Source: Armatimonadota bacterium (GTDB lineage: Bacteria > Sysuimicrobiota > Sysuimicrobiia > Sysuimicrobiales > Humicultoraceae). From it: 64,000 nucleotides of DNA. Position 1 is the first letter of the stretch. Every line of letters starts with the position of its first letter. Both the position numbers and the translations under genes were made by a program. This document shows, one piece after another, positions 13,436 through 51,197 of the stretch. The notes below the pieces were generated by a model. That model was not told the origin of the DNA. It did no database searches and worked only from the letters and a program-made list of their open reading frames with translations. Location: the NCBI GenBank assembly GCA_031459855.1, contig JAVKHP010000001.1, forward strand, positions 3,076,309 through 3,140,308, given 5' to 3'.

Positions 13436-14206
13436 CTAGCGGATCTCGACCTCGACCGCGTCCTCACCGAAGATCTCCTTGAAGCGCCGCTCGTCGACCT
13501 CTGCGGGTTCCCCCTCGAAGACGATGCGCCCGGCCTTCAGCGCGATCAGCCGCGTCCCGTAGCGCCGGGCCAAGCTCAGGAAGTGGAGGCTGCAGATCAC
13601 CGTCACGCCGTCGCGCCGGTTCAGGGCCTCGATGTACTGCAGCACCGAGTGGGACGTCGCCGGGTCGAGGCTCGCCACCGGCTCGTCGGCCAGGATCAGC
13701 TTCGGGCTTTGCATGAGGGCCCGGGCGATGCCCACGCGCTGCTGCTGGCCGCCCGACAGCTGGTCGGCACGGGTGTGCGCCTTCTCGGGAATCCCCACGG
13801 TCTCCAGGTGTGCCAGGGCCCGCTCCCGCAGCTCCCGCGGCCAGTAGTTGACCAGCGCCCACCACGACGGGGTGTAGCCCAGCCGGCCCGTGAGCACGTT
13901 GGTCAGGACCGTCTCGCGCTTGACCAGGTTGAACTGCTGGAAGATCATCCCGATCTGGCGGCGCAGGACGCGCAGCTGCTCGGGCGACAGCGCCGTGACG
14001 TCGACGTCGTCGACGTAGACCTTGCCGCTGGTGGGCTCGATGAGGCGGTTGATGCACCGCATCAGCGTGGACTTGCCCGACCCCGACAGCCCGATGACGA
14101 TGAGGAACTCGCCCGGGCGGACGGCGAAGGTGACGTCGGTCAGGGCCCGGGTGCCGTCGGGGTAGACCTTGGTCAGGTGCTCGACGCGGACCGCCGCCCC
14201 GGCCAT
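13436..14206 (-). CDS. phnC: Phosphonate-type ABC transporter ATP-binding protein
   Basis: ATPase subunit powering import by PhnE/PhnD, 256 aa, cytoplasmic face of the membrane. Walker A GLSGSGKST (about 38-46), Q-loop FQQFNLVKRETV, ABC signature LSGGQQQRVGIARAL (near 147), Walker B LILADEPVASLDP and the switch His in CSLHFLS. FNLV plus the long post-Q-loop segment GYTPSWWALVNYWPREL is characteristic of PhnC. Start ATG at 14206 follows GGAG by a short spacer. It is the middle gene of phnD-phnC-phnE. Confidence 0.94.
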   Translation of the reverse strand: MAGAAVRVEHLTKVYPDGTRALTDVTFAVRPGEFLIVIGLSGSGKSTLMRCINRLIEPTSGKVYVDDVDVTALSPEQLRVLRRQIGMIFQQFNLVKRETVLTNVLTGRLGYTPSWWALVNYWPRELRERALAHLETVGIPEKAHTRADQLSGGQQQRVGIARALMQSPKLILADEPVASLDPATSHSVLQYIEALNRRDGVTVICSLHFLSLARRYGTRLIALKAGRIVFEGEPAEVDERRFKEIFGEDAVEVEIR

Positions 14207-38449: not shown

Positions 38450-38872
38450 CTAGATGCTCAGTTCCTCGATCTGCTCGGCGATCTTCGGCGCCGACTTCCT
38501 GGCCTGCTCGAGGTAGGTCTGCCAGGTCGCGAGGCTCCAGATCTCCACCCGGCTGACCAGACCTACCACCACGACCTCCCGCTCGATCCCCGCGTGCTGC
38601 CGCAGGTGTGGCGGCAGCGTGATCCGCCCCTGGCGGTCCAGGTCCAGGTCAACGGCACCGGCCAGCAGGTACCGCATCACGTCCCGTTTGCTGGTCGAGA
38701 GCCGTTTCAGGGCCTCTTCGACCCTGGCCCACTCCGTGGGCGAGTACACCGTGACGCACGGGTCGATGCCCCGGGTGGCGATCACCTGGTCGCCCAGCGC
38801 GCGCCTGAACCTGGGGGGCAGCACGACGCGGCCCTTCTCGTCCAGGGCGTACTGGAACTCTCCTCGGAGCAT
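38450..38872 (-). CDS. mraZ: Transcriptional regulator MraZ
   Basis: DNA-binding AbrB-like ring protein that represses its own dcw operon, 140 aa. Two MraZ repeats are visible: LDEKGRVVLPPRFRRALGD (about 11-29) and LDRQGRITLPPHLRQHAGI (about 79-97), each carrying the DXXGR-LP DNA-binding loop. ATG at 38872 is chosen over GTG at 38878 because homologues begin M-(L/F)-RGE and GAGGAG lies 6 nt upstream. It is first in the dcw operon, with a periodic operator directly upstream. Confidence 0.95.
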   Translation of the reverse strand: MLRGEFQYALDEKGRVVLPPRFRRALGDQVIATRGIDPCVTVYSPTEWARVEEALKRLSTSKRDVMRYLLAGAVDLDLDRQGRITLPPHLRQHAGIEREVVVVGLVSRVEIWSLATWQTYLEQARKSAPKIAEQIEELSI

Positions 38873-38918
38873 CCCCACTCCTCACCACTTTGTCCCACGC
38901 TATTCTCCAGGTTCCCAC
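38873..38918 (-). promoter_or_regulatory. MraZ-type operator: five 10-bp-phased GTGGG-like units
   Basis: On the minus strand, units start every 10 bp: GTGGGA (38913-38918), GGAGAA (38903-38908), GTGGGA (38893-38898), GTGGTG (38883-38888), GTGGGG (38873-38878). Known MraZ boxes are TGGG repeats at 10-bp spacing. The last unit abuts the mraZ ATG, and the Shine-Dalgarno sits between units, so binding could block transcription and the start site. Confidence 0.75.
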
Positions 38919-39708: not shown

Positions 39709-40461
39709 TCAGTCGCGTGGCCTGGACCGTGCGCGGGCCTCTCCCGGTGCTGGCGGCTGTAGCCGTCCGATGCGGCCTCGTACCCTGCGCAACAGCCACT
39801 GGGCCTGCTCTCCCAGACCGAGCACGCCGTCCAGTTCGTGGCGGAGCGCGATCCCTTCGGGCGTGTCGGCGATCGCGGGGCTCGGGTGCGTCACCACCAT
39901 GATGCCGCCGTCTGGCAGGATCTCGACCATGAACGCCAGCGAGGTGAGCACGCGGGCCGGCCCCACTCTGGCCACAAGCTCAGGTCCAAGGAAGTTCGCC
40001 CACTGGAGCAGTGGGGGCTCCACCTCCCCCGCCCCCCCGAGGCCCTCCCACTCCCCGGACCCGACAGCGCCCCAGGGAGCCTCGAGAAAGAGGTAGAGCC
40101 CCTTGCACACCCCCAGCAGCCGCTCGACTTCCTGACTGGAGGACAGCGTGTCCGCCGGCACGACAAGCCCTACGCGTGTCGGGCTGGTCCGCGGGTTCGG
40201 GCTGATCGCAAGCGAGAGCACCGGCTCCGGCGTGTTCTCGGCCACGCGTAGAAAGGTGGCCTCCCCGGCGGCCCCCAGCTGCTCGAGGAGCGCGGCGGAC
40301 CGCGTCCCGGTCAGCCGATGCAGGGCTCCGTCGGCGGCCCGCCGGACCAGCTGCGGCGCGTAGGGGCCGCCCTGCGCCTGCAGGGTGTCCAGAATCGCTC
40401 TCACCATACCCGGCTGGATCGGACGGTCGACGACGAACCGGGCCACCACCTGTCCCGGCAC
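39709..40461 (-). CDS. Orphan protein, possibly Imm52/DUF3396-type immunity-like
   Basis: Function unknown, 250 aa, no signal peptide or membrane segment. The central and C-terminal parts (LLQWANFLGPELVARVG near 166, then LTSLAFMVEILPDGGIMVV near 187) recall proteins annotated as type VI or polymorphic-toxin immunity (Imm52/DUF3396), which share a W/Y-x-N-x-(L/F)-GPELV segment followed by LPDGG. This is a memory-based resemblance and weak. GTG at 40461 is favoured by GAGGTGG about 10 nt upstream; the open frame continues to 40638 without a better start. No adjacent toxin gene is seen. It lies between the dcw operon and the AT-richer island. Confidence 0.5.
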   Translation of the reverse strand: MPGQVVARFVVDRPIQPGMVRAILDTLQAQGGPYAPQLVRRAADGALHRLTGTRSAALLEQLGAAGEATFLRVAENTPEPVLSLAISPNPRTSPTRVGLVVPADTLSSSQEVERLLGVCKGLYLFLEAPWGAVGSGEWEGLGGAGEVEPPLLQWANFLGPELVARVGPARVLTSLAFMVEILPDGGIMVVTHPSPAIADTPEGIALRHELDGVLGLGEQAQWLLRRVRGRIGRLQPPAPGEARARSRPRD

Positions 40462-40963
40462 CTTGCCCCACCTCGCCTTCGCTTCCGGCTGGTGAGATAC
40501 AGGTGTAGCGCCCCGATCTCTCCGCGGTCTCTCACGCCGTTGCAGGGCGGCATGATGACACCCCGTGGGCGCCCGCCCGCGTAGGGGGCAACCGCGGCGC
40601 TGCGGGGACGCTGGGGGGCTCTGGGCTTTCAGGTGCAAGCTCGCAGGAAGCCCTGCCTGCTCCCTGGAAGCTTGCAGGAGTCTGAACGAAAAGCGCGTAT
40701 TTCAATAAAGTAACCGGACCGACAGCGCAGCAGGTGCGGCACTCCACGCCGCCGAGCCGCCTCGTCGCGAGAAGCTCGTGGAAGTCCACGATTACGAGGC
40801 GCGCGTCATCGTAAGCGATCCATAGCGCCGCCTGCACGAGAGCGTACCCGCCGAGGTGGGGAATGAGGATTATACGCGCTCTCAGCAATGCGATAGCGCG
40901 TGGGTTGTTAGTGTACAACGATCGCGAGATCTAAGACCGTCGGTCTGGTTCTTCTTTTTTGAG
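40462..40963. other. Island left boundary: dyads, divergent promoter candidates, possible gene remnant
   Basis: TGCAAGC (40634-40640) and GCTTGCA (40670-40676) form an inverted repeat enclosing a smaller GCAGG-CCTGC hairpin. A minus-strand frame from GTG 40837 to 40532 (101 codons, with VQAALWIAYDDARLVIVDF) has no recognised family; a TATAAT lies upstream of it at 40869-40874 (minus). GTTGT-TAGTGT-ACAAC (40904-40919) is a small dyad next to a weak plus promoter candidate (TTGTTA at 40905). Base composition shifts to AT-rich here. Confidence 0.4.
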
Positions 40964-42232
40964 ATGATGCAGACGATCTCGCCACCCGTCCAATGGTTCA
41001 CGTTGGCCGTCATTGCGACAGCTGAAGTAGTTCTGGCATTTTCTTTGCATCAAGTATCGTGGCAGCTGTGGCACGAATTGTTGCTTTTCTACATCGTGAC
41101 CGTAGTAGCGTACTCAGTACGTGTACCCGATCCTAGAGGTGGTGCTGTCACACCTAGCGATGTCCTCTCATATCTCGCGACCTACCTTTTCAATCCCCCT
41201 ACAGCTCTGCTGGTCGTTGGGACGGGGCGTACGTTGGGTTACGTGGTTTCCCGAGGATGGATACCGTGGCGGGCGCTGTTGAACGGCGCACAGATGGGAA
41301 TCAGCGTTGCAATCGGTGCACTAGTATTCTCTGCGTTGGGTGGCACGCCCGGCCACATCGACTTGGAAAAAGGACACCTGGCGCTGGTTGCGGCGCCGCT
41401 CGCGCACCAAGCGGCGAACAACTTTTTCTACGCGTACAGCTTCAGCAGATGGCGCGGAACAAGTCTGTCAGCTATTTGGCTCGTCGGGATCCGGGATCTT
41501 TTTTGGCCCAACCTACTGCATATTCCGACTGCCATATTTTTAGGGATCCTCACCACAAGAGTGACAGCCTTTGCGATTGTGCTGTACATGCTTTTGCTCC
41601 CGTTTCAGTGGCGGGCGTTGCGGCTTTATCTCGGAAGAAGACAGCTCTATGCTCAGATCGTAGACAGGCTTGTAGTGGCGATGGATGTCGACTTTCCTTC
41701 GAGCGGAGCGCACGCGAGAAGGGTCGCGGCCATCGCAGTGGCAATTGCAGAAGAAATGCGCTTGGGTGAGACTCACGTCGAGGCCATTCAGTTTGCTGCC
41801 CTATTACACGACGTAGGGCTAATTGGGAAGGTGGATCTGTTGCAAAAGCATCGATTTGATTCGGAAACGAGTAGGAACTTCGAAGAGCACGTATACGTGG
41901 GTGCGAGCATCGCACAAGAACTGCCACGCAAGGATATCGGACTGTTGGTGCTCCACCACCACGAGCGCTACGACGGGCAGGGATACCCGAAGGGGCTCAA
42001 GGCAGACGCGATCCCCTTGGGGTCACGGGTGATTGCTGTGGCTGAGTATGTAGATAGTATGAGGTTCGGTCTCCCCCCCTATACCGTTGCGTCCGAGGAA
42101 TCAGATGTGATTGCTGCCGTTCGAAACGAGAGCGGGCGCGCATTCGACCCGGAAGTCGTTGATGCTTTTTTGCGGGCCGTTGCCAAAGGACTGTTCGTGC
42201 GATTGGGAGAAAAGACAGCGTTCATCCCGTAG
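40964..42232 (+). CDS. Membrane HD-GYP domain protein, partly degenerate
   Basis: First gene of the island operon, 422 aa. About six membrane segments (residues about 8-225) are followed by an HD-GYP domain (about 240-420), the family that hydrolyses cyclic di-GMP. Metal-site residues are largely kept: AHARRV, LLHDVGLIGK (HD pair), EEHVYVGA, HHHERYDGQGYP. However, the region that normally reads D-A-(L/M)-T-x-x-R-P-Y is VDSMRFGLPPY, and the usual Lys after HDxG is Leu. It may be a binding-only or weakly active form. ATG at 40964 lacks a strong ribosome-binding site. Codons are AT-richer than the flanks. It ends 16 nt before its intact paralogue. Confidence 0.82.
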   Translation: MMQTISPPVQWFTLAVIATAEVVLAFSLHQVSWQLWHELLLFYIVTVVAYSVRVPDPRGGAVTPSDVLSYLATYLFNPPTALLVVGTGRTLGYVVSRGWIPWRALLNGAQMGISVAIGALVFSALGGTPGHIDLEKGHLALVAAPLAHQAANNFFYAYSFSRWRGTSLSAIWLVGIRDLFWPNLLHIPTAIFLGILTTRVTAFAIVLYMLLLPFQWRALRLYLGRRQLYAQIVDRLVVAMDVDFPSSGAHARRVAAIAVAIAEEMRLGETHVEAIQFAALLHDVGLIGKVDLLQKHRFDSETSRNFEEHVYVGASIAQELPRKDIGLLVLHHHERYDGQGYPKGLKADAIPLGSRVIAVAEYVDSMRFGLPPYTVASEESDVIAAVRNESGRAFDPEVVDAFLRAVAKGLFVRLGEKTAFIP

Positions 42233-42248
42233 CACTCTGGAGCTGCGC

Positions 42249-43517
42249 ATGACGATAGATTGGGTTACTCATTTCGGATCCTCGCTGTGGAGCGCCAGTT
42301 TGGCTGTAGCGGGCGCTGGTTTTTCGGCCGGTGTAGCTCTCCTGGCGGTGACCACATCGCAAGCGTGGGTACCCTTGCTACTTCTCTTGGCTCTTGGGGT
42401 TATTGGGGACATTTTCCGCATACGTTTGAGTCACCATAGTGAGATTGCGCTGCGGTCTGTTCCTGCTTTCGTTGCGCTCTGGAGTATTGGGGTGCCGGCG
42501 TACTTGCTCGTCGGCTTGTCGCCGCTAGCCGTCCTTGGAGCGATCCGCAGGGATAGGGAATGGGCGCAAACCTTTGCACGCGAGGCAACATCTCTTTGGG
42601 TCGGGCTGGGCACCCAGGGCATCGTGGAGTCAGTCATCTTCCACGTGTCCTCCTCCGAAACGACGGAGAGCCTTTTGGTGCACATGTCTGGCCCACTAGC
42701 TTACTGGGTGTCGACCTTGGTGATGCAGGCGTTCGCTATTCACCGCCAAGAAGGCGTGGCGTATCGTTCACTCGCGCGCGGACTTAGCCGCGAGGCCTTA
42801 CCCCACATTTTCGTGCTGAGTGCCGCCGCAGTCACGTTAGGGTACTTGCTGGATAGGTTTGGAGCCGCAGCGATGGCCGTTGCGGCCGTGGTCCTAGTCG
42901 AAGGCTACTATCCATGGAAACTTGTCGGTGAGCAGAGTGGGCTGCTTCTCACCAGCCTTCAGATGATGGCGCAAGCCGTAGACCTCAAGGATCCTTACAC
43001 GTCCAATCACTCGCAGCGAGTGGCGCGCCTTGCAGTTCGGCTTGCGCGGGAACTGGATTTGTCAGAGGCGGAGGTGGAGCGCGTTAGGATCGGTGCTTTG
43101 CTACATGACTTAGGCAAGATAGGAGTGAGCAACGAGATCATTCGGAAGCCAGGGAAACTAACCTTAGAGGAATATCGTGCCGTCATGAAGCACTCAGAAG
43201 TCGGTGCGGACATTATCGAACCCCTTGAGATTCTTGGGGACTCCGCAGCCATGGTGCGACACCATCACGAGCACTGGGACGGATCGGGGTATCCAGATGG
43301 CCTAGCTGGGCGAGCTATTCCACTGGGCGCAAGAATCATACTTGTGGCCGACGCGTTCGACGCGCTTACGACGGACAGGCCCTATCGCAAAGGTACGAGT
43401 CCGGAGAAAGCCCTAGAGGTAATTCGAGCAAACGCGGGCGTGCAATTTGATCCAGACGTAGTAAGGGCTCTTGAGCGTATAGTCACGCGGCACGGATCGA
43501 GTAGCGTGACGTTGTGA
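42249..43517 (+). CDS. Membrane HD-GYP phosphodiesterase-like protein
   Basis: 422 aa, exactly the length of the preceding gene product. Membrane segments fill residues about 12-225, and a canonical HD-GYP domain follows: SNHSQRVARLAVRLA (near 255), LLHDLGKIGVSNEII (HD pair, near 287), KHSEVGADIIEPL, HHHEHWDGSGYPDGL (GYP motif, near 337) and VADAFDALTTDRPYR (near 368). It should hydrolyse cyclic di-GMP or a related dinucleotide at the membrane. ATG at 42249. It is 45 nt before the regulator gene, so the three form one transcript. The membrane part may sense an envelope or small-molecule signal. Confidence 0.88.
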   Translation: MTIDWVTHFGSSLWSASLAVAGAGFSAGVALLAVTTSQAWVPLLLLLALGVIGDIFRIRLSHHSEIALRSVPAFVALWSIGVPAYLLVGLSPLAVLGAIRRDREWAQTFAREATSLWVGLGTQGIVESVIFHVSSSETTESLLVHMSGPLAYWVSTLVMQAFAIHRQEGVAYRSLARGLSREALPHIFVLSAAAVTLGYLLDRFGAAAMAVAAVVLVEGYYPWKLVGEQSGLLLTSLQMMAQAVDLKDPYTSNHSQRVARLAVRLARELDLSEAEVERVRIGALLHDLGKIGVSNEIIRKPGKLTLEEYRAVMKHSEVGADIIEPLEILGDSAAMVRHHHEHWDGSGYPDGLAGRAIPLGARIILVADAFDALTTDRPYRKGTSPEKALEVIRANAGVQFDPDVVRALERIVTRHGSSSVTL

Positions 43518-43562
43518 AAGGACAGCTGGAAATCGTGAGATAGTGCACGGGAGCGTAGGCAT

Positions 43563-46500
43563 ATGAAAAGCGCTGCCCTGAGGCTGTTTGGCCGCTTTTC
43601 GTTAACAATGTCCTCGCATCAAGTTTCTCTGGGTGACAAAGAAGAAGCGTTGCTTGCCGTTCTTGCCCTGGGAGACGGAGGCGCCACTCCAAGATCTCGT
43701 GTGGCAGGGATGCTTTGGCCCGACCACTCAGAGTCTCGGGCACGGGCAAACCTGAGCACCGTTATCTGGCGGGTAAGAGCCGCAGTTAAGCGACACGACC
43801 TACGGGGCGATCTACTTTTGTCAGATGCGTCTCGCATTTGGTTAGACACGTCACGTATTTGGGTGGACGTTCAGGAGTTTAGGAAGGGAGCAATTGCCAA
43901 GCCCGGACAGTTACTAGACCTAGAGGCGTTGGGGCGCGCGGTAGCCAGTATGGAGCTCTATGTTGGAGACCTGTTACAAGACTGGGACTATGAGTGGTGC
44001 GTGTTGGAGCGGGAGTCACTCCGCGAACTCTACCTTTGCACCGCCGAGGCGGTCATCGACGGTTTCGAGCAACGGCATAGATGGGACGTTGCGCTTAGAT
44101 GCGCCCGCAAGGCGATACAGATGGATCCCTATCGGGAGCGGCTCCAGCGTGCGCTAGTGCGTCTCTTGCTGCGAAGTGGAGACCGGGCAGCGGCTTTGGC
44201 ACAGATCTCTAGATTCGCCAGACTGGTAAGACACGAATTTGGTGTCGAACTCGACAACAGCATTCTCGACCTTTCTCGTGCGATGCGAGGGTCTCATCCG
44301 TGGCTGTCCCGCACGGAGGGCAATCCAATTGCACAGAGCCACTTTCCTCCTGCGCGAGAGCTTCCTTTGATTGGACGTCTTGTCGAGAGACAATGCCTCC
44401 TTGCCGCTCTTGAGAGAGCAAGAAACGGCAAGGGCACTGGGATCTTCATCACAGGTGACGCCGGTATGGGCAAGACGAGGTTGCTCAACTGGTTTTTGGA
44501 GGAGTGGGCTGCTTTCGGTGGCATCACGAAGCGGGGCCGGTGCATCGAATTTTGTCAACCGGTGGCTTATCATCCGGTCAAAGACCTCCTCGGGCTTGAA
44601 CTCTCTGGCCAGCATGAAGCGCACTCAGTTGAAACCGGTGTAGGAACCAGCCCCAACGACAATTACTCTGGGCCTGCCAAGAGCGGTGCTCGGCTACACT
44701 TCACGCAGGTGATGTCGAAAGTTGAGGCGCTTACGACTCAGCGGCCGGTCCTATTAGTCATCGAGGACGTACAGTGGGCCGACGCCTATACCGTTGACCT
44801 CGTCGCATTCCTCCTGGAGAGGGCCAATGGTCTTCGCCTTGTCGTAGCAGTTAGCGCGAGCTTGCCGCTGACTTCGTCCCAGGTCGCGCTGCACTATCGC
44901 CTGCAGCGCTGTGCGGACATTGCATTGAGACTGGCACCCTTGACAAGGTCAGAAATTGCCGAGCTGGTTAGCAATGTTGCGGCAGGTCTGGAGGATCCGG
45001 CTCGGGCTATTGATCGAGTTTGGCTCGAATCGGAAGGCAACCCTTTTATCGCCTTGGAGGTTCTTAAAGTCATTGGCACCCGGAACAAAACCTCCGATCG
45101 ACGCATGAGGGTCTCGGTACTACCAGGGAATGCTGCGTCATCCGATGCAATGCCTGATGCAGTCCGTTCACTCCTACAGCGGCGCCTGTGTGGGCTTCCT
45201 CCGGACGCACGGACGGTTGCCGAGGTCGCCTCCGTGCTAGGGCGAAGTTTTGATTTGGAGGTACTCACCGGACTCGCAGGTATAGAGACACGTGAACTGC
45301 AGGCTGCAGTGGAACTGCTAGATGCTGCCGGTGTGTTTCAGCGCGAACAGTCAACCATTAGGTTTTCGTTAGAGCAATACCGCCTCCTGTGCTACGAGCG
45401 CCTGCCTCCGCGCGACCGCGTGACGTATCATCAAAGAGCTTACAAGATTCTGCTACCGCGTGGCGACGCCGCGGCTACAGAGCTAGCTTGGCATCAGTAT
45501 GCATCAGGATGCCTTAAGAGAGCCGCACGGTGGTGGGAGGCGGCGGGTGATCGGGCGGCTGCCGCGTACCAGTATGAAGTGGCAGACCGGGCTTACAGCA
45601 TGGCAGCGGAGTGCTGGAAACGAGTTAGTCGCCGAGGTGCAACTGAGAGTGTTACTTGTAGCGAGTTTCGAGTACTGAGCAAACTCGACGAAGTAATGAC
45701 AGTGATGGGACGAACTCGAGAGCGGCGTGAAGTACTTGATGAGATGAGAGCGCTGGCTTCGCGGGATCCCTCCAAGAAGCTTTTGGCTTCCTGGTATCTC
45801 CGCGCCGCATGTTTTGACGAGCACGTAGGCAATTTTGATACAGCAGTGCGACTCGCAAGGAGAGCCTGGCATCTGGCTGGTAGTCTCAGAGCGCAGGATC
45901 TGCAGGTGACAGCTCTACGAGACTTTGCATGGGCGCTGAGTAGAGCGGGCCGGAATTGGAGAGCCCTGGCGGCCTTCAGGGCGTGCCTGAGACGGGCGCG
46001 ATACGCAGAACCACGCGAAGTCATTACGGCGCTTTGGCAGACTGCCGTGGTATGCATCAAGCTATCTGATTTCGCACTGGCCTCGGCGTGCCTAGAGCGG
46101 GCCAAGTTAGCAAGCAAAGTATCAAGTTTCGTGCATGAAAGTTCGGAGATATTAGGTGTAGAAGCGATTGCGGATAAATGGATGGGCAGGCCAGAAGCAG
46201 CGAGAGAAAAACTAAGCCGTTCGATGAACATCGCGAAGAAGAGACGTGACCGTGTGATGATAGCTCGTCTCGACTTTCACCTGGCAACGCTTGATTGCCT
46301 TGAAGGACAGCTTGGCCAGGCTCTGTGTAGATTGCGCAGAGCCATTGTGGCAAGTCGTGAGATGGAGTATGTGAGGACGCATCTTTCCTGCCTTACCGAA
46401 GTTGCCAGCGGGCTTGGCCGTGTGATAGGCAGCTTTGAGTTGGCCCGGATGGCGGTACGGCATGCTCTTAGAATCGCACACTACACTCAAAGCCGATTTC

Positions 46501-47192
46501 TGTATGCTGTTTGTAGAGATGCGGAGGCGCAGTTACTTATCGAAGAAGGGCGCTTCGCTGAAGCGGGATTCGTGGTAGCGGATGTGTTTGAGACGCTTAA
46601 GGCTGCGGGATATCCTGTGGCTGGCCTGTCAGAGGCGGTGATGCGACGCGGCGTCATCAGTCTGCTCCTTGGACAGGTCGAGACGGCGCTCGCGGATCTG
46701 GAGACAGCAGCGAGGCTGCAGTCTCAAGCCGGCGATCGGCTCCTTCTGGTCAACTGTTTGAGCTACTTAGCAGCAGCCTATGCAGCGATTGGCAACATGG
46801 CATCCGCCCTCGCCGTGTCCACCGATGCGGTTCGACTGCTTCAAGCAACTAATCACGCGAACCCTCAACCGCAGCGGATCTATTGGCACCATTACCTGAT
46901 CCTCAAGTGCATGGGCCTAGAACCACGTGTGCCGTACCTACAGAGGGCGGCAGAACTGATTGAAACAAGGGCCGTCACGCTCTCACGGGCACAACAGCGG
47001 CGGTTCAAGACGGCGGTTCCATTGAACCGTGAGATCTTGGCGGCCTGGGAACACTATCGGCAGACTGGCGCAGAGTTGGAAGCGGTCGACTTGCGCGGGG
47101 GAGTCTTGCCAAATCCGATGGGAAGGCTGGATGGTGGCGTGCCTGTGTCCGCGAAGGCTCACCCGACGGAATGCTTGGGAACCGTCTCCTGA
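43563..47192 (+). CDS. SARP/BTAD-type regulator with AAA ATPase and TPR domains
   Basis: Large signal-integrating transcription regulator, 1209 aa. Order: an OmpR-like winged helix (about 5-95: LRLFGRFSLTM, RSRVAGMLWPD, ANLSTVIWRVRAAV), a bacterial transcriptional activation domain (about 98-245, WVDVQEFRKGA onward, with ALRCARKAIQMDPYRE), a STAND/AAA_16 ATPase (LIGRLVERQCLLAAL near 278, Walker A GDAGMGKTR near 297, Walker B VLLVIEDVQWAD near 397) and a long TPR region (about 640-1150). There is no C-terminal LuxR helix-turn-helix. Such proteins usually activate nearby secondary-metabolite or transport genes; the MFS exporter downstream is the obvious candidate. Composition matches the island, not the flanks. 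Confidence 0.85.
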   Translation: MKSAALRLFGRFSLTMSSHQVSLGDKEEALLAVLALGDGGATPRSRVAGMLWPDHSESRARANLSTVIWRVRAAVKRHDLRGDLLLSDASRIWLDTSRIWVDVQEFRKGAIAKPGQLLDLEALGRAVASMELYVGDLLQDWDYEWCVLERESLRELYLCTAEAVIDGFEQRHRWDVALRCARKAIQMDPYRERLQRALVRLLLRSGDRAAALAQISRFARLVRHEFGVELDNSILDLSRAMRGSHPWLSRTEGNPIAQSHFPPARELPLIGRLVERQCLLAALERARNGKGTGIFITGDAGMGKTRLLNWFLEEWAAFGGITKRGRCIEFCQPVAYHPVKDLLGLELSGQHEAHSVETGVGTSPNDNYSGPAKSGARLHFTQVMSKVEALTTQRPVLLVIEDVQWADAYTVDLVAFLLERANGLRLVVAVSASLPLTSSQVALHYRLQRCADIALRLAPLTRSEIAELVSNVAAGLEDPARAIDRVWLESEGNPFIALEVLKVIGTRNKTSDRRMRVSVLPGNAASSDAMPDAVRSLLQRRLCGLPPDARTVAEVASVLGRSFDLEVLTGLAGIETRELQAAVELLDAAGVFQREQSTIRFSLEQYRLLCYERLPPRDRVTYHQRAYKILLPRGDAAATELAWHQYASGCLKRAARWWEAAGDRAAAAYQYEVADRAYSMAAECWKRVSRRGATESVTCSEFRVLSKLDEVMTVMGRTRERREVLDEMRALASRDPSKKLLASWYLRAACFDEHVGNFDTAVRLARRAWHLAGSLRAQDLQVTALRDFAWALSRAGRNWRALAAFRACLRRARYAEPREVITALWQTAVVCIKLSDFALASACLERAKLASKVSSFVHESSEILGVEAIADKWMGRPEAAREKLSRSMNIAKKRRDRVMIARLDFHLATLDCLEGQLGQALCRLRRAIVASREMEYVRTHLSCLTEVASGLGRVIGSFELARMAVRHALRIAHYTQSRFLYAVCRDAEAQLLIEEGRFAEAGFVVADVFETLKAAGYPVAGLSEAVMRRGVISLLLGQVETALADLETAARLQSQAGDRLLLVNCLSYLAAAYAAIGNMASALAVSTDAVRLLQATNHANPQPQRIYWHHYLILKCMGLEPRVPYLQRAAELIETRAVTLSRAQQRRFKTAVPLNREILAAWEHYRQTGAELEAVDLRGGVLPNPMGRLDGGVPVSAKAHPTECLGTVS

Positions 47193-47589
47193 CCCCGTGT
47201 GCCGTTTTCCGCGATGGTCTTCGAAGCCACGGACGCCGGAAGAAGCACGTTGGAGCTGTCCCCCTTGACGCAGCTGACCCACACGGTGCTGGCTTCCTCG
47301 GCACGGCACCGGTAGACGCGTCGCTGCGGGCCCCATAGGCATCACTAGCCGCAAGCCTCCCCGGGCCCGGCCCACTTGCTCCCGCCACAGCCCCGAACTC
47401 GTAGACCTCCGCAGCCCCCGTCGAACCAAACACCCCGCTGCGCGTCCTGGCGGTCGCGGATCGCCTTGGCGTCCAGTCACAAGGGCAACCGCCGGTAACT
47501 TGCCCTGCCAATCCCGCGGCTATCTCTCCACGGAGCCCGAATTCCTACCCATTACCCAGAACGCTACTCATCTCGCCAGAGCCGCCCAC
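47193..47589. other. Convergent intergenic region with terminator-like dyad
   Basis: Between the stops of the regulator and the MFS gene. AGGGCAA (47482-47488) and TTGCCCT (47500-47506) form a 7-bp stem with an 11-nt loop. The 5' half (47193-47480) is GC-rich like the core genome; short frames there are not recognisable and could be remnants of a broken gene. Confidence 0.4.
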
Positions 47590-49122
47590 CTACTTCGACG
47601 ATCCAAACCTCGTAATCAGCGCGCGAACCACGACAGCCGCGATAACGGTGGCGGCCACGACTCCGGTCGCGATGACGTTCTGCAGTGGAAACGCAACCAA
47701 GAAGACAAGCCAAAACGCTGCAACCATCGCAAGGACGACGCTATTCAGCCATACTTGCTCTTCTCTAGCAAACTCGGGACTGCACCGATCCACAAGGCTG
47801 ACGAAAAAGTCTGACAGGATGCGTTCCGCAAATACGCCTATTCCGAGTCGTGTGTTTGCACCGATTGCCCGCCCGTCGTAGTGCCAGACGCTTGGAAACC
47901 TGATAGCAGCGAGCAGTGTTCCAATCGTGGAAATGGTCGCCATGGCCAAGATGGAAAACCTAACCCCGACCGCGTCCGCAACCCACCCGAAACCCACTAA
48001 CGACACTGCGCGCATCAATGCAACTAGTACCTGCCTGGTAGTGATAGTACGGCCCATCTTGTCAGCTGGAGTGTATTCCATCAGGATCGTGGCTACACTA
48101 ATAAAGACGATCATGTTGGCAAAACCCGCCCAAAAGTTCGCAACAACTAACATCGCAACGTTCGCCGATAACCCCACCGCCGCAACGGCCATGGCCCATA
48201 GAAGGTAGGCGGCAACGATGACGTGCCCCCTGCGCAGAGTCAAGCCGCACCATGCAAGCAGTAAGGATGCCGCAACATAGCCAATCCCTCCGCTACTCTG
48301 GAACCAACCAAACTGCTGGTCTGTGACTCGCAGCACCCCTTTTGCCATCGGTGTCTGGAGGGAATTTAGGCCAGCAACCCAGTAGCCACCGAGCACGAGG
48401 GCAAGTAGTCCCAGTTGAATCTTGTCGTTCTTAACATAGCGAAGACCCTCAACTATTGAATGGAATACTCCCTTTTGATGCACGTCCGCCGGATTGACAG
48501 CACCGACGTCCCCGTTGGTTATTTTTAAAAGACTAACCAACACGGCCGATGCTAAGAACGTGATCCCATCCAGGTAAAGCGCCGTTTGATAGCCAAGTGT
48601 CGAAACAACTAATCCTGCCAAAACTGGCCCAATGATCTCCGTGCCTGAGTCCATGGATGCGAATAGGGCATTGGCCTGTAGTAAGCTACCCCGAGGTACA
48701 GACTGAGGGATGCACGCAAACATCGCGGGACGAAAGAAAGCGGTCGCCGCTGATATTAGAAAAAGGACCACGTACACCAGAAGAAGGTTGCGCTCCATCA
48801 AATCGGGAATAGCAAAGACGAGAGTAGCGCGTATCAAATCAGCATAAACTAGAATCTTGCGGCGGTCTAGACGGTCGACCAAAGCGCCGGCTGGCACACC
48901 AACGACTGCCGAACCCACCAGCAACGCCATAATCGCAAACGACACTGACAGCGCCGAGCCCGTCTTCTGATAGACCCAGAGCGAGATGGCCATCCAGTGC
49001 AGTCTGTCGCCCAGTTGTGAGATGAGCTGGCCGGTCCACAGCAGGGCGTAGTTCCGATGCCGCATGACGGACCAGAACCCGCCTGCACCGGGCTCAGCGA
49101 TGTCGGCGACGGAAGAGGTCAT
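47590..49122 (-). CDS. MFS transporter (MFS_3/enterobactin exporter-like)
   Basis: Proton-driven exporter of the major facilitator superfamily, 510 aa, twelve membrane segments. N-terminal FWSVMRHRNYALLWTGQLIS (16-35) and the loop 2-3 motif GVPAGALVDRLDRRKILVYA (about 75-94) are typical of the MFS_3 group (EntS, macrolide and siderophore exporters). The C-terminal half has IFISV-like VFISVATILMEYTPADKMGR. A cytoplasmic loop of about 60 residues lies near 410-455. It converges on the SARP-type regulator operon, shares its AT-richer composition and is likely under its control. The substrate is unknown. Confidence 0.85.
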   Translation of the reverse strand: MTSSVADIAEPGAGGFWSVMRHRNYALLWTGQLISQLGDRLHWMAISLWVYQKTGSALSVSFAIMALLVGSAVVGVPAGALVDRLDRRKILVYADLIRATLVFAIPDLMERNLLLVYVVLFLISAATAFFRPAMFACIPQSVPRGSLLQANALFASMDSGTEIIGPVLAGLVVSTLGYQTALYLDGITFLASAVLVSLLKITNGDVGAVNPADVHQKGVFHSIVEGLRYVKNDKIQLGLLALVLGGYWVAGLNSLQTPMAKGVLRVTDQQFGWFQSSGGIGYVAASLLLAWCGLTLRRGHVIVAAYLLWAMAVAAVGLSANVAMLVVANFWAGFANMIVFISVATILMEYTPADKMGRTITTRQVLVALMRAVSLVGFGWVADAVGVRFSILAMATISTIGTLLAAIRFPSVWHYDGRAIGANTRLGIGVFAERILSDFFVSLVDRCSPEFAREEQVWLNSVVLAMVAAFWLVFLVAFPLQNVIATGVVAATVIAAVVVRALITRFGSSK

Positions 49123-49228: not shown

Positions 49229-50434
49229 ATGCGAGGTCCGCGAGCGTTCCTCCTACTCCTCATGCTGCTGGCGACGCCTGTCCCGCCCCCGGCAGCGGCG
49301 CAGGTGCCGGTCGCCACGCGTCCGGGCGTGGATGTTCTGCTGGGGTCTCCCGGCCTCCTGCAGGGTCGCCGTATCGGGCTGGTGACACACGCTGCAGGGG
49401 TCACCAGCACCGGCGAGCCGACGTGGGCTGTGCTGCGGCGGGACCCGCGGTTCCTGGTGACCGCGCTGTTCGCACCGGAACACGGGCTAACGGGAACGCT
49501 GCCCGCCGGGCAGCCGGTGCCTGACGGCAACGGGGACCTGCCGGTCTTCAGCCTCTACGGCCGCACCCGCCGCCCCACGCCTGCCATGATGGCGCACATC
49601 GATCTCTTCCTCATAGACCTGCAGGACGTGGGAACGCGGGCGTACACCTACGCCTCCACCATGGCGCTGGTCCTGCAGGCCGCGAAGGACGCGGGCAAGC
49701 CGGTGGTGGTGCTGGATCGCCCCAACCCCATGGGCGGGCTGCACCTGGACGGCCCGGTGCTCGAGCCACCTTACCAGTCCTTCATCGGTCTCTATCCCAT
49801 TCCGCTCGTGCACGGCATGACCATCGGCGAGCTGGCGCAGCTGTTCAACGGCCTCTTCGACATCGGGGCAGACCTCACCGTGATCCCCATGCGCGGCTGG
49901 ACACGGCGCATGACCTGGCAGGAGACTGGGCTCCCGTGGGTGCGTCCCTCCCCCAACATCCCGACGATGCTCACGCCCTTCTACTATGCCGCCACGGGGG
50001 TGCTCGACGGCACGACGCTGTCGGCGGGGGTCGGCACCGACGCGCCGTTCCAGCTGATCCACAGTCCGTGGCTCGATGGGGCGCGGCTGGCCGCGCGCCT
50101 CAACGCGGTGGGGCTGCCGGGGGTCGTGTTCGACCCCTACGCGTTGCGAGGGGAAGATCCGCCGCGGGCGGTGCGGCTGGTCGTCACAGACCCGCTGGGG
50201 TTCCGGCCGGCGACGACCGCGGTCCACATTCTGGTCGAGACGCGCCACCTGCACGGGCCGCTCCTCGCGTTCGTCGCTCAGGGGGGTCGGTACAGGTTCG
50301 ACTACGTGTGGGGCACCAGCGGCGTCCGTGAAGCGATCGACCGCGGGGCGCCGGCCTGGGCGATCGTTGCACGCTGGGACGCCGAGTTGCGCCGGTTCCA
50401 GATGTTACGCAGTCCCTACCTGCTCTACCCTTGA
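49229..50434 (+). CDS. namZ: Exo-beta-N-acetylmuramidase NamZ family (DUF1343)
   Basis: Secreted glycosidase of the GH171/NamZ family, which removes terminal MurNAc from peptidoglycan fragments during recycling; 401 aa. Signal peptide RAFLLLLMLLATPVPPPAAA (5-24). Mature-domain landmarks: PGVDVLLGSP, IGLVTHAAGVTSTG (near 49), ALFAPEHGLTG (near 78), LFLIDLQDVGTRAYTYAST (near 124), VVLDRPNPMGG (near 158), LVHGMTIGELA (near 188), WVRPSPNIPT and GTDAPFQLIHSPWLDG. Start ATG 49229 follows GAGG. Composition returns to core GC levels. It diverges from the MFS gene and probably marks the right edge of the island. Confidence 0.88.
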   Translation: MRGPRAFLLLLMLLATPVPPPAAAQVPVATRPGVDVLLGSPGLLQGRRIGLVTHAAGVTSTGEPTWAVLRRDPRFLVTALFAPEHGLTGTLPAGQPVPDGNGDLPVFSLYGRTRRPTPAMMAHIDLFLIDLQDVGTRAYTYASTMALVLQAAKDAGKPVVVLDRPNPMGGLHLDGPVLEPPYQSFIGLYPIPLVHGMTIGELAQLFNGLFDIGADLTVIPMRGWTRRMTWQETGLPWVRPSPNIPTMLTPFYYAATGVLDGTTLSAGVGTDAPFQLIHSPWLDGARLAARLNAVGLPGVVFDPYALRGEDPPRAVRLVVTDPLGFRPATTAVHILVETRHLHGPLLAFVAQGGRYRFDYVWGTSGVREAIDRGAPAWAIVARWDAELRRFQMLRSPYLLYP

Positions 50435-50831: not shown

Positions 50832-51197
50832 AAACGGGAGCAGGTCTGTAAGCCGGGTTCTGTGCGCCGCGCGCTCGCCGCGCGGCGCGACGGTCATCTC
50901 TCTGCGACCGCGGTTGCCCGCGGCCTCCAGCAGCCTACCCGGGGATCGGCGGGCCGCCTCATCTCCCCCTACCTGGCCTTGCTCCGGGCGGGGTTTGCCT
51001 GGCCGGACTGTCGCCAGCCCGCCGGTGGGCTCTTACCCCACCGTTGCACCCTGGCCGCCGCGTGCGCGCGCGACGGTGGTCTGTTTCTGTGGCACTCTCC
51101 CTGGGGTCGCCCCCGCTGGGCGTTACCCAGCGCCCTGCCCTGCGGAGCCCGGACTTTCCTCGGCGCGATTCGCGCCGCGACCGTCCGACCTGCTCCC
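50832..51197 (-). ncRNA. rnpB: RNase P RNA (bacterial type A)
   Basis: Catalytic RNA that removes 5' leaders from pre-tRNAs. On the minus strand the RNA begins GGGAGCAGGTCGGACGG and its 3' end contains the complement ACCTGCTCCC, forming the terminal helix. The universally conserved core is present: GAGGAAAGTCCGGGCTCC near the 5' end, the central ACAGAAA and AGGGTGCAACGGTGG(GG)TAAGAGCCCACC region, GGCAAACCCC, and the 3' ATGACCGTC...ACAGAACCCGGCTTACAG block, which can base-pair with tRNA CCA. Length about 366 nt fits type A. Ends are set by the terminal helix, accurate to a few nt. Confidence 0.96.

Follow-up and report, generated by a model that had tools for sequence, protein, structure and literature searches.

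The window, i.e. the whole stretch of 64,000 nucleotides that was analysed, belongs to a 3.19-Mb assembly of 4 contigs, and relatives were taken from a phylum sample of 43 genomes in seven families (f1 to f7). Four genes, named here HD1, HD2, REG and MFS, were located with their neighbours as follows:

38450-38878, minus strand: mraZ, first gene of the dcw cluster, a kept neighbour in f1, f5 and f6
39709-40638, minus strand: F10, an ORF of unassigned function between the module and mraZ, common to several f1 genomes
40964-42232, plus strand: HD1 (Pfam HD_5), S-component-like membrane domain and altered HD-GYP domain
42249-43517, plus strand: HD2 (Pfam HD_5), S-component-like membrane domain and canonical HD-GYP domain
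43563-47192, plus strand: REG, SARP-type ATPase-TPR regulator of 1209 aa (Pfam BTAD, AAA_16 and TPR)
47590-49122, minus strand: MFS, drug-exporter-like transporter (Pfam MFS_1/MFS_3)
49229-50434, plus strand: namZ (exo-beta-N-acetylmuramidase), divergent from MFS and a kept neighbour in f1 and f2

HD1 and HD2 are separated by 16 nt, HD2 and REG by 45 nt. These positions and gaps are those given for the four genes by the first-pass annotation, and its family assignments (two HD-GYP proteins, a SARP-type ATPase-TPR regulator and an MFS transporter) were also obtained with Pfam. It had reported neither integrase, transposase nor phage gene, in agreement with the Pfam scan of the HD1, HD2, REG and MFS proteins, none of which matched these families. 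F10 had zero matches in the Pfam and NCBIfam searches. The scan for sigma-70-type promoters returned 1 match for 3.0 expected, and terminator-like sites were no more numerous than by chance. An RNase P RNA of bacterial class A lies just past namZ (50833-51196, minus strand).

Close orthologues of HD1 were detected in 13 of the 43 genomes, spread over f1, f2, f5 and f6. HD2 adjoins HD1 in all 13 (the HD1 orthologue of G011 being cut by a contig end), as does MFS except in one or two cases at contig ends. The HD1-HD2-REG trio is present in 11 genomes of two families, f1 and f2, usually with MFS alongside. In f1, a divergent namZ is followed by MFS-HD1-HD2-REG-(F10)-mraZ-rsmH-ftsI-mur, with all genes from MFS to mraZ on one strand, a view interrupted by contig ends in G004 and G010. 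The f5 and f6 order is MFS-HD1-HD2-mraZ, without REG alongside. In most relatives, the module heads the mraZ/dcw cluster and the unit begins with MFS, on the same strand as HD1. This neighbourhood could indicate a cell-wall function, in which MFS would move an envelope precursor or a recycling product while HD1 and HD2 tie it to the dcw genes and to NamZ. The adjoining mraZ of f1, f5 and f6 and the adjoining namZ of f1 and f2 are compatible with such a role; however, in f2 the four genes stay beside namZ at a distance from mraZ, in f7 the module adjoins oxidoreductase and fumarase genes (Pfam annotation for L160 only), and f4 has mraZ without the module, so that we accord this function little likelihood. 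The module was found neither in f4 nor in the single f3 genome examined.

The source genome alone carries HD1-HD2-REG inverted relative to MFS and mraZ. The convergent MFS gene noticed at first is indeed seen in the window but does not stand as a general layout, since it stems from a local inversion that only this genome carries and that separates MFS from HD1 and from the leader that precedes HD1. A search of the window gave no inverted repeats convincingly bracketing the inverted block, and a misassembly may be another source of the apparent inversion. Outside the phylum (343 genomes), ten neighbourhoods read among those of the best HD1-profile matches contain lone HD-GYP proteins, without second HD-GYP, MFS or leader, and these proteins are canonical wherever the motif scan read them. 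Recurrence of the trio in unrelated genomes had been proposed as a check of the system: the trio does recur, in 11 genomes and two families, but within one phylum and not in unrelated phyla. The block is thus a recurring gene module within one poorly studied phylum.

Over the four-gene block the GC content falls to 0.535-0.62, whereas most windows on either side have about 0.67-0.77, one at 53.5-54.5 kb being lower (0.62). Of the 12 genomes tabulated, 11 have a module of low GC3, the source genome among them, with HD1 ranging from 0.52 to 0.76 and rsmH and ftsI from 0.73 to 0.94. No GC3 drop was seen in HD2 or REG of G011, whose HD1 is incomplete, and single module genes have flank-like GC in some genomes (MFS of G008, G002 and G020, HD2 of G015). 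In gene trees, HD1, HD2, MFS and REG separate f1 from f2 and match rsmH and ftsI at the f1/f2 level. Across three near relatives, the dN/dS ratios (omega) of the module genes are 0.10-0.22, in a set from which the rsmH comparisons with G010 were left out (9 stops in frame). The sharp fall of GC at the block, together with the absence of the module from f4 and from the f3 genome, could evoke a recently acquired genomic island, for which incongruent trees and missing synteny are expected. The conserved gene order, the family-consistent trees of the four genes and the recurring low GC3 rule it out, and recent acquisition is to be considered extremely improbable. The AT-rich block reported by the first-pass annotation is therefore real as a drop in GC but not as an island. 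Because the families separate in these gene trees in the way they do for rsmH and ftsI, and nearly all relatives share the low GC, the module has been inherited vertically and not by recent transfer. A sharp AT-rich patch inside a GC-rich genome can thus be ancient and vertically inherited.

The two HD-GYP domains of the window differ in their motifs. In HD2, the HDxGK, mid H, HHE, GYP, R, VAD-motif D and RPYR elements are all present, and its relatives are canonical save for a change of HH to SH in G004, G015 and f7. Its closest PDB relative by sequence is V-cGAP3 (5z7c), a cyclic-dinucleotide phosphodiesterase, and HD2 has the residues predicted for an active enzyme of this type. c-di-GMP is a plausible substrate, since GGDEF was matched seven times and PilZ once in the source genome. 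HD1 fails the HD-GYP phosphodiesterase signature, the lysine of HDxGK and the VAD-motif D being both replaced: the window protein reads HDVGL (K to L at 286) and has the metal-site D changed to E at 361. In every HD1 aligned (A1, A7), three f7 proteins included, the lysine is L or M and the VAD-motif D is E, and the lysine is replaced by I or T in two further HD1-like proteins of f7. HD is retained, as are the HHE ligands in most members, and the closest structural match is DvhD (PDB 9rbz). Judged by its residues, HD1 is an HD-GYP protein in an altered but conserved form, and not a decayed one; its role is probably regulatory or nucleotide-binding and it likely pairs with HD2. Both proteins had initially been taken as HD-GYP proteins of the c-di-GMP-degrading type, which would fit the canonical HD2 but not HD1, altered at signature residues in every aligned member.

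The AlphaFold models of the two proteins have mean pLDDT of 86.7 and 83.0. In Foldseek searches, both membrane domains matched S components of the RibU, ThiT, FolT and BioY type with TMt of about 0.58-0.68 and a probability of 0.97-1.00 for most, at weak E values of 0.05-0.8; for the TmRibU chain 5kbw_A, the values with both modelled domains were TMt 0.62-0.68, probability 1.00 and E 0.05-0.14. HD1 also gave a sub-threshold match to Pfam PF07155. Both membrane domains are thus modelled with the six-helix fold of ECF S components.

The MFS protein scores above the cut-offs of the Pfam MFS models and reaches 213 bits against TIGR00900 (2A0121 drug/H+ antiporter), below the cut-off of 319.6; its resemblance to Mef(A) is also below cut-off (NCBIfam). 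In five of the 12 f7 genomes, Pfam finds in one ORF both an HD2-like region and, after it, an MFS region. These fusion ORFs measure 832 to 1193 aa, taken as the longest ORF with uncertain start codons. The HD1-like gene adjoins the HD2::MFS ORF on its 5' side or overlaps it, by 4 nt in the three genomes (3/3) whose ends were compared, and REG is not beside the fusion. The fusion implies, at the level of sequence, a direct relation between HD2 and MFS, from which the HD1/HD2 pair would act on or with the exporter. We found no such arrangement, with a transporter and cyclic-dinucleotide turnover in one polypeptide, described in the open-access literature searched.

REG consists of a SARP-type N-terminal region, a BTAD domain (above the Pfam cut-off), an AAA_16 ATPase and TPR. 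It was classed as SARP by a profile match to the AfsR chains (E 8.3e-37, best stretch 4-315) and is far from the NCBIfam AfsR equivalog cut-off (22.1 against 1430 bits). An HTH_11 was found at the C-terminus of REG in L113 (1219-1259, above cut-off) and L110 (1250-1277, below) and not in the window protein, and REG of G004 (L114) is split over two frames that overlap, which may reflect a frameshift or a sequencing error. REG could belong to a linear relay in which HD1 and HD2 sense a signal and alter c-di-GMP, which is read by the SARP-like ATPase to turn on MFS. The position of REG, directly 3' of HD2 in all 11 f1/f2 module genomes, and the similarity of its N-terminal 300 residues to the AfsR profile are compatible with this relay. 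Nevertheless, the modules of f5, f6 and f7 have MFS, HD1 and HD2 without adjoining REG, the f7 fusion implies that HD2 is linked to MFS directly, and Pfam and NCBIfam report no cyclic-dinucleotide-binding domain in REG. The chain from sensor pair through REG to exporter, as first proposed, is weakened by these observations and appears to us unlikely. Since REG is absent from the f5, f6 and f7 modules and the fusion implies a direct relation of HD2 to MFS, REG is probably an accessory added in f1 and f2.

HD1 is preceded by a structured RNA, the elements of which are, in the window:

40708-40963, plus strand: structured leader of HD1, about 250 nt, defined by alignment, folding (z -2.98) and covariation
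40712-40723 and 40939-40950, plus strand: 5' arm and 3' arm of the closing stem P1
40736-40752, plus strand: hairpin P2, with the 7-nt loop ACTCCAC
40863-40934, plus strand: 23-codon ORF MRIIRALSNAIARGLLVYNDREI with its stop, inside the leader, its end 4 nt short of the P1 3' arm
about 40951-40959, plus strand: U-rich tract following P1

Neither this leader nor its small ORF figured in the first-pass annotation. The leader lies between MFS and HD1 in f1, f2, f5 and f6 and ahead of HD1 in f7; in relatives it measures about 210-300 nt, with P1, P2 with its 7-nt loop and further stems. The two P1 arms of a leader pair with each other at a mean of -25.7 kcal/mol, whereas arms exchanged across family groups give -13.2; in P2, 65 of 70 pairs are canonical, for a shuffled mean of 46. 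With the automatic alignment, RNAalifold recovered 8 pairs of P1 only and zero double changes because P2 is misaligned there, and the pairs were therefore counted on hand-registered arms. In that alignment of 12 sequences, with arms placed by judgement and G020 and G015 omitted since a P1 bulge breaks the ungapped register, 87% of the cells pair against 68.9% after shuffling, and double changes occur at 15 of 18 pairs, a number reached by none of 500 shuffles. The leader is thus a conserved structured RNA supported by compensatory changes, without match above the gathering score in Rfam and bearing a short coding-like ORF.

A covariance model run over the 43 genomes gave 15 matches below 1e-10, 13 of them being the sequences used to build it. 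The others are a partial leader in G009, where it follows an MFS gene at the end of a contig, and a copy in G014 unused in the model (E 1.2e-25), between MFS and a second HD1-like ORF. The f7 leaders score weakly (E 0.002 and 0.028 at two loci) and were recognised by eye from P1 and P2. Among the genomes searched, the strong matches all fall in this module, so that the leader gives a starting point for finding what is sensed by the module. In G006 (L108, same contig as L025), a transposase/integrase-like stretch was noticed by eye between MFS and leader (13581-13952), and G017 (L157) has an extra, truncated MFS-leader-HD1 copy and a diverged HD2-like ORF.

The small ORF has a coding-like signal in f1: pN/pS is 0.13-0.54 (five genomes), and the differences fall mainly at third codon positions in most close pairs (1, 1 and 10 over the three positions for G008/G002). 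Similar short frames were read by eye in the f2, f5 and f6 leaders, and 7-codon frames in f7. The U-rich tract follows P1 in f1, f2, f5 and f6; it did not appear in those f7 leaders that were read. This arrangement suggests a translation-coupled attenuation by the leader; given the 7-codon frame and the U-rich tract not seen in f7, one mechanism need not hold there. A small ORF ending beside a P1 arm, with a U-rich tract next, could also reflect antibiotic-induced efflux, in which the ORF would stall on a drug-bound ribosome, P1 would open and the downstream genes would rise, a Mef-like MFS exporting the drug. The sub-cut-off resemblances of MFS to TIGR00900 and Mef(A) go in the same direction. 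However, outside f7 the leader sits after MFS and before HD1 and would therefore not induce the exporter, and the two HD-GYP proteins and the fusion are left unexplained; such induction seems to us rather improbable.

Taken together, we consider it an even call that this vertically inherited module works as a cyclic-dinucleotide unit in the membrane, one that acts on the exporter or in concert with it, under translation-sensitive control by its leader, with REG as a later accessory. HD2 would be the predicted cyclic-dinucleotide phosphodiesterase and HD1 the altered partner paired with it, the S-component-like membrane domains of both would sense a ligand, and the pair would have the MFS exporter as its target or its working partner. 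The structured leader would set how much HD1 and HD2 is made: a ribosome translating the small ORF as far as the stop codon would sit over the P1 3' arm and should, while there, keep P1 and the U-rich tract from terminating transcription in f1, f2, f5 and f6. Added in f1 and f2, REG would probably activate the unit. More tentatively, and as a possibility that we do not favour strongly, the module could represent a new class of membrane complex, in which a phosphodiesterase and its altered partner directly control an exporter via S-component-like ligand-binding domains while an undescribed structured RNA with its own leader peptide sets their synthesis. HD1 and HD2 offer a natural couple of altered and canonical HD-GYP proteins, readily testable.

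The open-access literature searched gave no report of a system combining HD-GYP with SARP, of an HD-GYP/MFS fusion or of HD-GYP with a leader peptide, and the comparison was made with systems resembling single parts of the module. In the tnaC and ermC leader-peptide attenuators, the stop of a short ORF abuts a base-pairing arm and a U-rich tract comes next. The window leader likewise has its short-ORF stop close to the P1 arm, followed by a U-rich tract, but it is a large, closed RNA with several stems, about 250 nt long and placed between exporter and signalling genes. REG shares with AfsR (PDB 8jke, 8k60) a SARP N-terminus and BTAD followed by ATPase and TPR, whereas its score is far under the AfsR equivalog cut-off and its ATPase is of the AAA_16 type. 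The S-component fold serves as receptor domain in the 5TMR histidine-kinase receptors (PMC11109136), as would be the case in HD1 and HD2; the outputs discussed in that work are kinase, GGDEF, EAL and others, its text giving no HD-domain or phosphohydrolase terms. DvhD of Desulfovibrio vulgaris (PDB 9rbz) is a membrane-protein c-di-GMP receptor with a non-canonical, non-hydrolysing HD-GYP domain (PMC13090378). HD1 also has a non-canonical domain, but DvhD is without the HD and double-His metal ligands that HD1 retains in most members, and it carries PAS and periplasmic dCache domains in place of the S-component-like domain (PMC13090378). Finally, V-cGAP3 (5z7c) and the HD-[HD-GYP] enzymes combine, like HD1 and HD2, an active HD-GYP domain (predicted in HD2) with a degenerate HD domain; compared with the latter, HD1 retains HD and mostly the HHE ligands, other residues being gone, and the two domains that share a single chain in those enzymes are carried here by two membrane proteins.
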